20,454 nucleotides of DNA, from IMG/VR virus record IMGVR_UViG_3300027896_000280, positions 1-20,454 of that record. One strand, 5' to 3'. This DNA comes from a virus. Numbering within the stretch: position 1 is the first letter of the stretch; every line of letters begins with the position of its first letter. Shown in pieces: positions 12,460 through 20,367 of the stretch. A model generated the notes under the pieces. That model was not told the DNA's origin. It ran no database searches and saw only the letters and a list, made by a program, of their open reading frames with translations. The translations under genes were made by a program, and so were the position numbers.

Positions 12460-12849
12460 ATGAAAAAAATACTACTCGGAATAATCTTAATGACGGCTTT
12501 CTTCAAACCGGCTCATGCGGTTGGAACTGATGTGCAAGAAGTTCTGCAATCTTCAATAACGGTAAATGTAATAACAGTATCGTCTATCACACCGACTCAA
12601 ATTGACCCATCAAGCATATTGATGAATTATAGAGCCGTTCTTGTAATTCAAAATCTTGATTTAACGAATAAGATTTATTGTTCACAAAAATCAAATGTTA
12701 CAACTTCTACTGGCTTTATGTTACCCGAAAGCGGTGGAATTATAAATCTGCCGATAAGCGCAACAAATGAAAGTGGAAATAGATTGACAATTTATTGTAT
12801 AACTTCAAGCACGACTACAAGTAAGGCAACGGTTATTCAGGCGTATTAA
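12460..12849 (+). CDS. Small beta-sandwich virion-like protein with Sec signal peptide
   Basis: This 129-residue protein starts at ATG 12460 behind AAAAGG/AAAAGG; the frame is open 16 codons leftward but without support. Residues 1-20, MKKILLGIILMTAFFKPAHA, are a textbook Sec signal with an AHA cleavage motif. The mature part follows a pattern seen in small phage structural and fibre domains: NYRAVLVIQNL, IYCSQKSNVTTSTGF, LPESGG and a C-terminal strand. Two or three cysteines (IYCS, IYCITS) could form disulfides outside the cytoplasm. An exported small virion-like protein is unusual. It could be a receptor-binding or decoration component added in the periplasm, or a host-surface protein. Neither is shown. 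Confidence 0.7.
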   Translation: MKKILLGIILMTAFFKPAHAVGTDVQEVLQSSITVNVITVSSITPTQIDPSSILMNYRAVLVIQNLDLTNKIYCSQKSNVTTSTGFMLPESGGIINLPISATNESGNRLTIYCITSSTTTSKATVIQAY

Positions 12850-12872
12850 AAAATGTTTAGGAGATTAAAACT

Positions 12873-14810
12873 ATGAAAAAGATTGCATTATTTTTGCTTT
12901 TGTTTTCCACTTTATCATATTCTGCGGAGATAAAAATAACTGCCCCTGGTATAACCAAAGCTACGGCAGATACCCTATATGCCCCCATAGGCACTTTGGG
13001 CGGAGGCGATAACCTCGGAAACCATATAGCCACCAAGACCCTGGATATGGCATCATTCCCCATAATCGGAGCAGGAAATATAATAGCGACATCTGCTATT
13101 ATTGGTAATCCTCCTTTTTCACCAATCGCCGATTATAAACTTAAAGTGATAACCAGTAGTAATTCTATGGATGGAATTTTAATTTTAAATACTAACACTA
13201 GCCCAACTGCTATGACTTCATTGGCATTATCAAATGGATTCGCCGGTTTATCTTTAAATGTTACAAGCACCAATTCAATAACATCGCCTCCGAATATAGC
13301 ATTTTTGAGTGGTAGTCCTGAATTGGCAGGTTTTGTAATTGTAGTGCCGTCAACAGGCCCAATAGCATTTATGGTAAACGACGGACAAGAAGTAGGGCGG
13401 TTTGCAGATACAGGTTTGTCAATTTCAACACTATGCCTAAACAGCGATTGCAAATCCGCTTGGCCTGCTGGTGGCTCAGGCGATAACCTCGGCAATCACA
13501 TAGCAACGACTACCCTACAAATGGGCGGCTATGACATAGCCACTTCAAGTGGAATTTCCGGCCTTGCACAGATAGTATGGGCCGATGGAACCGTCCAGGT
13601 GAGTTCTCCTGTTGCTGGTGGAACAGGGGCCGGTGATAATCTCGGTAATCATATCGCAACCACCTCATTGCAGATGGGGGCCTATTCCATTGAATCGTCA
13701 AGTTCTGTAAATGCCAATGCCTTTAATTCCGCGACTATTTATTCAATCAATGGTTATCAAATGCTGGCTTCACCAGTCACTCCCTCAAATGTCGCAATAG
13801 GAATGGACTCGCAGCATGTAGGAGGGGGGAATGAAAATCTCACAATGGGTTACAACTCTGGTTACTGGAATAGTAGTGGGATGAGAAATGTTTTTATCGG
13901 TTCGGTTGCAGGACAGGATAATATTAACGGTTCTGATAACATATATTTAGGATACTATGCTGGATATTCAAACCAATACGGTTCATTTAATGTAAATATA
14001 GGTGCAAATGCCGGATATAATAATCTTGTTTCTGAAAATATATTTATGGGCAACTACGCCGGTTATCACAATACAACTGGCACCGGAAATACTTTCATAG
14101 GTGATTATGCAGCAGGTTTGAATAGAATAGGAGAAAACAATTCATTAATTGGTTATATGGTTGGTTACTCTTTAGGAAATGGGGCATGTCCTTTTTGTAC
14201 CACCCGTGATAGCAACAATACGATACTCGGCTATAAAGCAGGTTATCTTTTAGGAAATACTGTTGACAACGATGGTCAGTCTAGCAACAATACATTAATC
14301 GGTTATGAGGCAGGATACAATATTGATAAAGGTACGGGAAATATCGTAATTGGATATGGACAGGATACTTCTGGTGCGGATGTCAATAATGAACTTAACA
14401 TTGGTGGAGCCATTACAGGCTCAATGGTGGCCGGAGATACAATCACATTCACAACTTATTTAGTAGCATTGGGATTTACTGACGCTTCACCTTATCCTGA
14501 TACCATAGAAGAAGCATACAAAGCCATAAAGAGTATGAAAGGTGATGGATATGGACATATAGACCACTCTGCACTTGATAAATCTTTGCAGACTTCTTAT
14601 ACAAGAAAAAGATTGACAGGACATAAAAAGGTTACAAATTCCTTTAAAACAATGGAAAAAGGAAAGGAAGTAACCAAAGAAGAAACTGTTGATGTGCCAG
14701 TTTATACAGTTGATAAACTTGTAGGCAGGAATGTATCGCAAACCTTATCTGACCACAACAAAGCGATACAAGACTTATTGGCACGGATAGAGAAGTTGGA
14801 GAAAAAGTAA
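12873..14810 (+). CDS. Repeat-rich tail-fibre-like protein with Sec signal peptide
   Basis: This 645-residue protein starts at ATG 12873 with AGGAG upstream. Residues 1-18 (MKKIALFLLLFSTLSYSA) form a Sec signal, probably cleaved near 17-18. Three GDNLGNHIAT motifs (residues 45-54, 203-212, 254-263) mark fibre-like repeats. Residues 319-500 hold about ten repeats of roughly 17 residues with consensus N-x-x-I-G-Y-x-A-G-Y-x-N, probably a beta-roll or beta-helix. A loop in the seventh repeat carries CPFC (Cys439, Cys442), and Cys188 and Cys193 lie earlier. The C-terminus (540-645) is basic then helical, ending in a coiled coil (LLARIEKLEKK). It could be a trimerising fibre or adhesin. No Peptidase S74 motif was recognised. 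The hub gene follows. Confidence 0.75.
   Translation: MKKIALFLLLFSTLSYSAEIKITAPGITKATADTLYAPIGTLGGGDNLGNHIATKTLDMASFPIIGAGNIIATSAIIGNPPFSPIADYKLKVITSSNSMDGILILNTNTSPTAMTSLALSNGFAGLSLNVTSTNSITSPPNIAFLSGSPELAGFVIVVPSTGPIAFMVNDGQEVGRFADTGLSISTLCLNSDCKSAWPAGGSGDNLGNHIATTTLQMGGYDIATSSGISGLAQIVWADGTVQVSSPVAGGTGAGDNLGNHIATTSLQMGAYSIESSSSVNANAFNSATIYSINGYQMLASPVTPSNVAIGMDSQHVGGGNENLTMGYNSGYWNSSGMRNVFIGSVAGQDNINGSDNIYLGYYAGYSNQYGSFNVNIGANAGYNNLVSENIFMGNYAGYHNTTGTGNTFIGDYAAGLNRIGENNSLIGYMVGYSLGNGACPFCTTRDSNNTILGYKAGYLLGNTVDNDGQSSNNTLIGYEAGYNIDKGTGNIVIGYGQDTSGADVNNELNIGGAITGSMVAGDTITFTTYLVALGFTDASPYPDTIEEAYKAIKSMKGDGYGHIDHSALDKSLQTSYTRKRLTGHKKVTNSFKTMEKGKEVTKEETVDVPVYTVDKLVGRNVSQTLSDHNKAIQDLLARIEKLEKK
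13005..13034 (+). repeat. GDNLGNHIAT repeat, copy 1
   Basis: This encodes residues 45-54 of the signal-peptide fibre protein. It is one of three copies of the same ten-residue motif, and is followed by KTLDM. Confidence 0.85.
13479..13508 (+). repeat. GDNLGNHIAT repeat, copy 2
   Basis: This encodes residues 203-212 of the same protein and is followed by TTLQMGGYDI. The DNA differs from copy 1 at synonymous positions. Confidence 0.85.
13632..13661 (+). repeat. GDNLGNHIAT repeat, copy 3
   Basis: This encodes residues 254-263 and is followed by TSLQMGAYSI. It lies 51 residues after copy 2, giving a local duplicated fibre module. Confidence 0.85.
13827..14372 (+). repeat. About ten degenerate 17-residue NxxIGYxAGYxN repeats
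   Basis: Examples are NIYLGYYAGYSN, NIFMGNYAGYHN and NTLIGYEAGYNI. Most units are 16-17 residues. Two are lengthened by loops of about 7-9 residues (one with CPFC). The DNA copies are diverged, so this is an old protein repeat rather than a recent tandem duplication. Confidence 0.8.
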
Positions 14811-14819
14811 AGGAGATAT

Positions 14820-19522: not shown

Positions 19523-19737
19523 CCGAAACAATCAGCACGAACACGGTAACTTTCGCGCAATATAAAGACTCCGCCGAAAGCGCGGAAATACGCATTTTTG
19601 TAAGCGGATTTGAACCCACTTACGATCCGATTATCTGCACCAAGGGCCAGCCCAGAACTATGAAGGATTTAGTGAAAAAACTTGAAAATCTTTTGGCTGT
19701 TGAGATTACTATTACGGAAAAAGGAGCATTGGCATGA
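19519..19737 (+). CDS. Hypothetical small protein
   Basis: This 72-residue protein starts at ATG 19519 in an ATGA overlap with the DUF5675 stop; a GTG at 19504 is in frame but lies within that gene. The sequence begins MTETISTNTVTFAQYKDSAE and ends with a helix (MKDLVKKLENLLAV) and a strand. I recognise no family. It has no signal peptide or membrane segment. It overlaps the next gene as ATGA, so the three genes appear coupled. Confidence 0.65.
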   Translation: MTETISTNTVTFAQYKDSAESAEIRIFVSGFEPTYDPIICTKGQPRTMKDLVKKLENLLAVEITITEKGALA

Positions 19738-19886
19738 AAAGAACCGTATTGAGAAGCCCCAAAGGCGTGAAGTACTATGCCTGTTGGAACGCAGATGACA
19801 AGTTCCTTAAGGTTGATCTGTACAAGACCTGCCACGGCAGGGACATCAAGCGGAGTTCAAAAGAGGAGAGGGCGAAGAAGTTGTAA
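19734..19886 (+). CDS. Hypothetical 50-residue basic protein
   Basis: ATG 19734 overlaps the previous stop (ATGA) and has AAGGAG seven bases upstream, so translation is well supported. The protein is Lys/Arg-rich (MKRTVLRSPKGVKYYACWNA, ending SSKEERAKKL) with two cysteines. The family is unknown; it resembles small nucleic-acid-binding or zinc-ribbon-less proteins only in charge. Its DNA is GC-richer than most of the window (30 G/C in the 60 bases at 19801-19860). Confidence 0.6.
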   Translation: MKRTVLRSPKGVKYYACWNADDKFLKVDLYKTCHGRDIKRSSKEERAKKL

Positions 19887-19923
19887 GCCAAAGGGCCAAC
19901 TGGCCCCGATTTAAAAGGAGATT

Positions 19924-20367
19924 ATGAAAAAAATAATATTCTCGGTTCTGTTTCTTTCAGGTTGCAATATCGTCGGCGTGGCCTATGCACAAGAAACATC
20001 ATTGACCGCGATAGACATGAGTGCGCCTCTGGCGGACGCTCGCGGTGGCATAGCGTGGGATAAGATGGGCACACAATTGGGAGTGGCGTATATTCCTGTA
20101 ATCTACATCTGTCCCGGCGCGGTGGAGTGGGCAACCTTCAACCTTGGGGCGGCTGATAAGTTGAGAACGGGCAAGGCCAGTTACCTTGTGTCCTTTGGCC
20201 CCCGGATTGACACTTTGTTTTCAAAGTTAGGTGCAACCTCATGGGCCAAGAAGAATCTACGGTTTATTACCCTCCCGCCTTTACAGATTAACCTAAATTT
20301 TCTGACGATGGATTTTAGAAAATATACGCCGATGCTTTCACTGTCAACGCGGATAGGGGGACGGTAA
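19924..20367 (+). CDS. Signal-peptide protein, lipoprotein or small outer-membrane-like
   Basis: This 147-residue protein starts at ATG 19924 with AAAAGGAG upstream. The N-terminus, MKKIIFSVLFLSGC, ends in a perfect lipobox (Leu-Ser-Gly-Cys14). A further AYA at residues 20-22 followed by QE is a second plausible signal-peptidase I site, so lipidation or plain secretion are both possible. The mature part has alternating beta strands (QLGVAYIPVIYICP, ASYLVSFGPRIDTLF, LRFITLPPLQINLNF) ending LSLSTRIGGR. This suggests a small beta-barrel or periplasmic beta protein. I do not recognise the family. It could be an envelope modifier, an o-spanin-like or exclusion protein, or cargo. It is GC-rich: 36 G/C in the 60 bases at 20101-20160. 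Confidence 0.7.
   Translation: MKKIIFSVLFLSGCNIVGVAYAQETSLTAIDMSAPLADARGGIAWDKMGTQLGVAYIPVIYICPGAVEWATFNLGAADKLRTGKASYLVSFGPRIDTLFSKLGATSWAKKNLRFITLPPLQINLNFLTMDFRKYTPMLSLSTRIGGR

Follow-up and report, generated by a model that had tools for sequence, protein, structure and literature searches.

The fibres of tailed phages are, by textbook assumption, built in the cytoplasm. The coat proteins of filamentous phages pass via the inner membrane before assembly. Exported phage lysis proteins have been described, including Lys44 of fOg44 and signal-arrest-release (SAR) endolysins such as P1 Lyz (PMC6116005), and the T4 antiholin RI is also exported (PMC8385771). Phage proteins of diversity-generating retroelements were noted to lack signal peptides, and this absence was used as support for their phage origin (PMC6199706). 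No description of signal peptides on tailed-phage fibres was returned by a search of the open literature, with preprints and most subscription journals lying outside that search. The subject here is a set of four predicted signal peptides for the general secretory (Sec) pathway, encoded at positions 12460, 12873, 17807 and 19924 of IMG/VR virus record IMGVR_UViG_3300027896_000280, the whole of which (20,454 bases; the window) was analysed and carries a block of long-tailed-phage head and tail genes. A preliminary description of this DNA held that such export signals contradict the cytoplasmic route of fibre assembly; this contradiction proved to be real, and the same arrangement turned up in phages unrelated to this one, including several cultured ones that infect soil bacteria. 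It is proposed, with confidence that stands about even, that the fibre encoded at 17807, and probably also the products of 12873 and 12460, are exported through Sec and fold in the periplasm before docking on tails, either at lysis or later. The features concerned are as follows, with a slash marking predicted cleavage.

17807 to 18691, plus strand: tail fibre of 294 amino acids, with a predicted signal peptide (residues 1-18, AWA/V), a module, a stalk with a cysteine pair, and a Gp53-like C-terminal knob.
17807 to 17860, plus strand: segment for the 18-residue predicted signal peptide, which takes the position occupied by 'MA' in conventional fibres.
12873 to 14810, plus strand: fibre-like protein of 645 amino acids, with a predicted signal peptide (about residues 1-17) and a coiled-coil-like C-terminal tail.
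12460 to 12849, plus strand: small beta-rich protein of 129 amino acids, with a predicted signal peptide (residues 1-20, AHA/V) and two cysteines in the mature part.
19924 to 20367, plus strand: fourth protein with a predicted signal peptide, 147 amino acids, with an AYA/QE site or a lipobox LSGC.

The four predicted N-termini were confirmed where the preliminary description had placed them, and read MKKILLGIILMTAFFKPAHA/VGTD (12460), MKKIALFLLLFSTLSYS/AEIK (12873), MKKILLAVIMIIGSKAWA/VDTYTTNL (17807), and MKKIIFSVLFLSGCNIVGVAYA/QETS (19924). Each gene starts with ATG and has an AGGA or AGGAGA (Shine-Dalgarno) motif ahead of it. Signal peptides were called throughout by one fixed rule, consisting of a positive n-region, a hydrophobic h-region, and a small-x-small cleavage site within about 25 residues. 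Exactly four of the 24 forward genes of the window, namely these four, were positive, compared with 0 of 38 spurious open reading frames and 0 of 111 internal methionines in the same DNA. Over all fetched loci, false positives amounted to 6 of 6126 internal methionines, while 10 of 715 genes in other phage loci were positive, some of which proved to be the same phenomenon in phage Tunturi_4 (see below). Four or more positives among 24 genes would arise by chance with a probability of about 1e-8 under the internal-methionine rate, or 3e-4 if the 10/715 of real genes is used instead. The export signals of the window are predicted to have the complete Sec signal-peptide architecture, including AxA-type sites, and are far above chance. 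Wrong start codons or signal-peptide look-alikes are an extremely improbable source of the pattern, given the start codons and ribosome-binding motifs of all four genes, the false-positive rate of 6/6126, and the recurrence in independent phages, although the signal of Tunturi_4 gp111 does depend on a re-assigned TTG start. No muralytic, spanin, or holin domain was matched by any of the four proteins in Pfam or PHROG.

The C-terminal domain of 17807 matches the Gp53-like family PF21882 (E = 5.5e-15; 56.1 bits versus a Pfam cut-off of 24.9), and the protein also matches PHROG tail fibre families. Together with the matches of 12873 to PHROG 6002 (virion structural protein, 5.1e-12) and PHROG 4636 (tail spike, 4.1e-8), this upholds the earlier reading of two fibre-like proteins, one of them gp53-tipped. 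Alignment identified the predicted mature N-terminus of 17807, DTYTTNLHLTKPGPSSLNWAGKINGDFDILD, as the N-terminal module found in ordinary phage fibres. The module, DTYTTNLHLTKP...NGDFDILD, directly follows the predicted cleavage site, and the expected mature N-terminal peptide is VDTYTTNLHLTK. Conservation of the fibre N-terminal domain has been attributed to its binding of the tail hub, and the function of the module is taken from that work (PMC10386132). An IMG/VR scan with the module alignment returned 281 relatives, and start positions were examined in the best 80 of them. All 80 begin the module at residue 2-3, and each has an in-frame stop no more than 26 codons upstream, which closes the upstream frame and makes a signal peptide impossible. 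The consensus of the conventional relatives is M[AP]D[ST]TTTNLGLTKP..WG..LNTNFD, with the module beginning at residue 2-3; in the window, the conventional 'MA' is exchanged for MKKILLAVIMIIGSKAWA-V. Signal peptides were likewise absent from five conventional fibres in GenBank (Tunturi_4 gp112, phiM5 gp19, one from phage OH, and two from Manatee Spring phages), giving 0 of 85 conventional module fibres. For phiM5 gp19, the annotation records detection in the particle proteome. The fibre at 17807 thus departs, by its predicted signal peptide, from what is expected of a tail fibre as a cytoplasmic protein without an export signal, and keeps the presumed hub-binding module at its predicted mature N-terminus.

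A search for the same layout in other phages, which the preliminary description had advised for related genomes, was productive: signal-peptide-bearing fibres recur in an unrelated IMG/VR phage (G001), in Tunturi_1 and Tunturi_2, in Tunturi_4, and in Mx8. G001 (locus L015; 40,965 bases, short-tail type genes) encodes a predicted signal peptide followed by the module, MKKALILFFFFCTLAYA/DSTTTNLGLTKP, a junction also given as MKKALILFFFFCTLAYA/DSTTTNLGLTKPTSTGTWGNQLNTNFDIID, and a second signal-peptide protein comes next. Tunturi_1 and Tunturi_2 are cultured podoviruses of Tunturiibacter (Acidobacteriota; the host of Tunturi_2 is Tunturiibacter psychrotolerans X5P2), with predicted signal peptides on gp12, gp13, gp14 (read from an internal start), gp16, and gp17. 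In Tunturi_2 gp13, a fibre-type module stands right after the signal peptide, MKWLSRLGLILLWPVAGFAQ/TTGAPLNLNVPAHGTQNYDVLLNANF, and the predicted mature N-terminus is TTGAPLNLNVPAHGTQNYDVLL... The gp17 signal peptides of the two phages differ at three positions, all of which leave the hydrophobic core and cleavage site intact. Neither phage has a large spike or fibre candidate free of a signal peptide, so that a working virion probably needs the signal-peptide-bearing ones. The cultured siphovirus Tunturi_4 carries signal-peptide-bearing tail proteins gp111, gp113, and gp114. For gp111 (L065:871-3966, PP885687), the annotated start (locus 1228) drops 119 residues, including the signal peptide; an upstream TTG with a AAGGATGA motif gives MNRISKAIGLCALALSVGSSYGQ, which resembles the neighbouring gp113. 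A large signal-peptide protein is common to the otherwise unrelated Tunturi_4 (gp114, L150:45019-47325) and Tunturi_1/2 (gp17 of Tunturi_2, L151:18902-22744), at about 49% over 650 amino acids. The paper describing the isolates Tunturi_1, 2, and 4 shows tailed particles by electron microscopy for all three, and Tunturi_1 and 2 form plaques; signal peptides go unmentioned in the passages searched (PMC11924767). A search for virion proteomics of the Tunturi phages or of the window phage returned none.

In Mx8, a phage of Myxococcus xanthus, the p64 signal peptide ends in PASA/ and a different fibre module, TRNSVGTYTLPGGNPVV, follows, with a predicted mature N-terminus of TRNSVGTYTLPGG...; a conventional relative of p64 from a bacterial genome begins MPRNPSTGVYSKPAG. 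In the same stretch of Mx8 (L161:36781-39367, spanning p64, p66, and p67), p66, two genes past p64, has a predicted signal peptide, and p67 starts with a hydrophobic, signal-peptide-like stretch. The trait is patchy and not dictated by the host, because Tunturi_3, which has the same host strain as Tunturi_1 and 2, has no fibre signal peptides (and few cysteines), and the control phages P8625 of Verrucomicrobia and phi14:2 of Cellulophaga have no tail signal peptides; in phi14:2, they are absent from all 14 virion proteins annotated from tandem mass spectrometry. A genome scan with a narrow DNA pattern for signal peptide plus module yielded matches (L055-L061) that were dismissed as chance. In another record (IMGVR_UViG_3300036770_003406, L017:5767-9049), adjacent signal-peptide-bearing proteins of 791 and 323 amino acids lie beside small membrane genes. 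The larger has a C-C pair and the smaller a C-terminal hydrophobic stretch, and the two may represent a further instance of the trait or else be related to lysis.

Cysteine content was compared between the mature residues of 14 signal-peptide proteins (from the window, G001, Tunturi_2, and Tunturi_4) and 65 conventional module fibres. The density was 1.77 per 100 mature amino acids in the former versus 0.27 in the latter, 26 of which were free of cysteine. Counts were even in 11 of the 14 (2, 4, 2, 8, 20, 10, 20, 34, 12, 8, and 20), and the other three proteins had one cysteine each. With only module-bearing fibres considered, three with signal peptides versus 65 conventional, the difference gave p = 0.0026. 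The gp17 proteins of Tunturi_1 and Tunturi_2 contain 32 and 34 cysteines, a difference of one pair. When the 12460 domain and a Tunturi_4 hairpin were searched by pattern for cysteine-free counterparts, no sequence for comparison came up. Disulfides form in exported proteins of many diderm bacteria, and the raised, mostly even counts of the exported fibres are what disulfides would lead one to expect. Together, the signal peptides and the cysteine counts make export the simplest reading.

The cysteines also bear on the idea that the N-termini stay uncleaved. On that view, the fibres would be assembled in the cytoplasm, and the hydrophobic end would either lie buried within the tail hub or insert into the membrane at infection. 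Tailed-phage fibres are classically cytoplasmic, and cleavage is itself a prediction. Nevertheless, the full signal-peptide architecture with clean AxA-type sites, the cysteine enrichment, the occurrence of the segment ahead of two different hub-binding modules, and the 85 of 85 conventional module fibres that do without such an anchor make this idea, and with it the earlier suggestion of hydrophobic tail anchors, unlikely.

In the proposed route, preproteins of 17807 at least, and probably of 12873 and 12460, would be made and directed by their signal peptides through the Sec translocon, where signal peptidase I would cut the signal peptide off. Cleavage would uncover an ordinary hub-binding fibre N-terminus, and the mature fibres would fold in the periplasm, partly with disulfides, while heads and tails are assembled in the cytoplasm. 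At lysis, the two pools would meet and the fibres would dock on the tail hub. Four lineages retain the hub-binding module right after the cleavage site, and Tunturi_1/2 lack large signal-peptide-free candidates; both facts suggest that exported fibres would still reach virions. Among the four explanations put forward in the preliminary description, assembly in the periplasm, or at or after lysis, is the best supported, by the position of the module, the cysteines, and the Tunturi_1/2 candidates. The wider proposition, for which confidence falls a little short of even, is that some tailed phages infecting hosts from several bacterial phyla keep heads and tails in the cytoplasm and Sec-exported, disulfide-bonded fibres in the periplasm, joining them only at lysis, and that an ordinary fibre is converted to this route by a signal peptide replacing its first two residues.

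The main rival to this two-compartment route is that the exported proteins act off the virion, as fibres either released or kept at the envelope, whose role would be to mask receptors, to cleave surface glycans, or to block superinfection and re-adsorption to debris. Signal peptides and cysteine pairs fit export of this kind as well, some Tunturi signal-peptide proteins resemble polysaccharide-active beta-helix or pectin-lyase proteins, and a large one is common to unrelated phages (Tunturi_4 gp114 and Tunturi_2 gp17). A free protein, however, would have no need of the hub-binding module, which four lineages keep right after the cleavage site, and off-virion action would deprive Tunturi_1/2 of large fibres. 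Host-surface display, also suggested earlier, is a possibility, but no surface anchor was recognised: the signal-peptide proteins of the window matched no Pfam anchor domain (sorting motif, autotransporter barrel), and they end in a phage knob or a coiled-coil-like part. Off-virion action is therefore somewhat doubtful, though it deserves to be taken seriously.

Export of the fibres is well supported by sequence, which shows the signal peptides, the module position, the recurrence, and the raised, mostly even cysteine counts. Several points weigh against the route as a whole. Signal-peptide cleavage, protein location, late docking, and presence in virions are inferred from sequence, and the meeting of a periplasmic fibre with a tail during fast lysis is not accounted for. 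The cysteine numbers of the window itself are small (2, 4, 2, and 1). A beta-helix-like protein of MW202608 (L160:5867-8527), part of which resembles Tunturi_4 gp114, has 14 cysteines and no signal peptide, so that protein type may account for part of the cysteine signal. When Tunturi_2 is taken by itself, signal-peptide proteins do not differ significantly from all others in cysteine density (p = 0.25), and several non-structural genes are cysteine-rich. The statistics are further limited by the non-independence of proteins inside one phage.

The remaining signal-peptide genes bear on whether host adhesins or cargo (moron) genes were captured into the tail operon for display by the host. The 645-residue protein at 12873 contains GDNLGNH stalk repeats and NxxIGxxAGxx repeats, which presumably occur also in bacterial secreted fibre-like proteins, together with four cysteines in two close pairs. 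In tblastn searches, it matched tail proteins of other phages, and the signal peptide was absent from the homologues in five of them. The GC content at third codon positions (GC3) of 12460, 12873, and 17807 (0.28-0.32) agrees with that of the hub-like gene (0.27) and the tape measure gene (0.33), and recent host capture is not indicated. The value for 19924 is 0.54, compared with 0.27-0.48 in the other genes measured, and this deviation favours capture. Capture of the set is nonetheless quite unlikely, in view of the phage fibre N-terminus and Gp53 C-terminus of 17807, the matching GC3 of the first three genes, their tight packing between tail genes, and the recurrence of the layout in other phages. 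The small protein at 12460 had no Pfam or PHROG matches, and none in 50,697 phage records; single-sequence AlphaFold models of it and of 19924 (mean pLDDT, predicted local distance difference test, of 39 and 32) were too poor for use. The grouping of 19924 with the others is doubtful. Its lipobox LSGC at residues 11-14 competes with the AYA/Q site, one cysteine is present in the mature part, and fibre features are absent. It is probably separate from the fibre set and not a fibre, and may be a separately acquired or unrelated exported protein.

The rest of the window comprises the following features.

Portal gene (PHROG 10963).
Head morphogenesis gene and protease, in the head and tail run.
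Major head protein gene (PHROG 371).
Tail protein gene (PHROG 290).
Start at 10342: tape measure gene (PHROG 24).
14820 to 17798, plus strand: large tail protein of 992 amino acids, hub-like by position and size, without a signal peptide and with weak F5/8-type C similarity.
18858 to 19112, plus strand: small protein of holin/XhlA-like appearance, hydrophobic over a C-terminal stretch, in the lysis region.
19112 to 19522, plus strand: DUF5675 protein (PF18925, 1.8e-28), in the presumed lysis region.

Toward the 3′ end, the tape measure gene (10342) is followed, in order, by 11826, the signal-peptide genes 12460 and 12873, the hub-like gene (14820), the fibre 17807, small membrane open reading frames, 18858, the DUF5675 gene, two small genes, 19924, and the contig end. 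The four signal-peptide genes had been placed inside a phage tail/lysis operon; they lie on either side of the hub-like gene and do not form a single run. Two tiny membrane open reading frames (22 and 32 amino acids; 18693-18860) separate the fibre from the lysis region, and are possible holin or spanin parts. At 1316-1540, between the portal and head-morphogenesis genes, a small protein has an N-terminal membrane segment (MKAHESWLITIAILSLGYLIHDIDVRIKKLE), an unusual site for a membrane protein. IMG/VR single-protein scans with the hub-like protein, 19924, the capsid protein, and 12873 found no relatives, nor did a portal search among cultured phages; the window phage is without close kin in reach of these scans.

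If the proposed route is correct, the textbook assumption on fibre assembly would be broken. Sec-routed receptor-binding proteins could use disulfides and extracytoplasmic folding, would be kept from cytoplasmic targets, and would be attached last. Their annotation and expression would change: signal-peptide proteins among tail genes would be treated as candidate fibres, and annotated start codons would need correction, as for Tunturi_4 gp111. Cultured phages with signal-peptide fibres exist, which makes a direct laboratory test feasible.

Signal-peptide and SAR endolysins and antiholin RI resemble the fibres proposed here in being Sec-routed during infection, but they are lysis proteins and not virion parts. 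Filamentous phage coat proteins are virion proteins with an inner-membrane route, as proposed for the fibres, whereas filamentous phages assemble by extrusion, without tails or lysis, and their coat proteins are unrelated in sequence. Conventional fibres with the DTTTTNLGLTKP module, such as phiM5 gp19 and that of Ochrobactrum phage OH, share with 17807 the module, the tail/lysis position, and a variable C-terminal part; they are cysteine-poor and begin the module at residue 2-3 without a signal peptide, whereas 17807 has a predicted Sec signal peptide replacing 'MA'. The Gp53-like domain PF21882 is C-terminal in 17807 as well, and its complete relatives examined here differ in having no signal peptide. 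Closest in arrangement are Tunturi_1, 2, and 4 and Mx8, which, like the window, have signal-peptide-bearing fibre- or spike-like proteins among their tail genes, with the module right after the signal peptide in Tunturi_1/2 and Mx8, but which belong to capsid and tail lineages other than that of the window.

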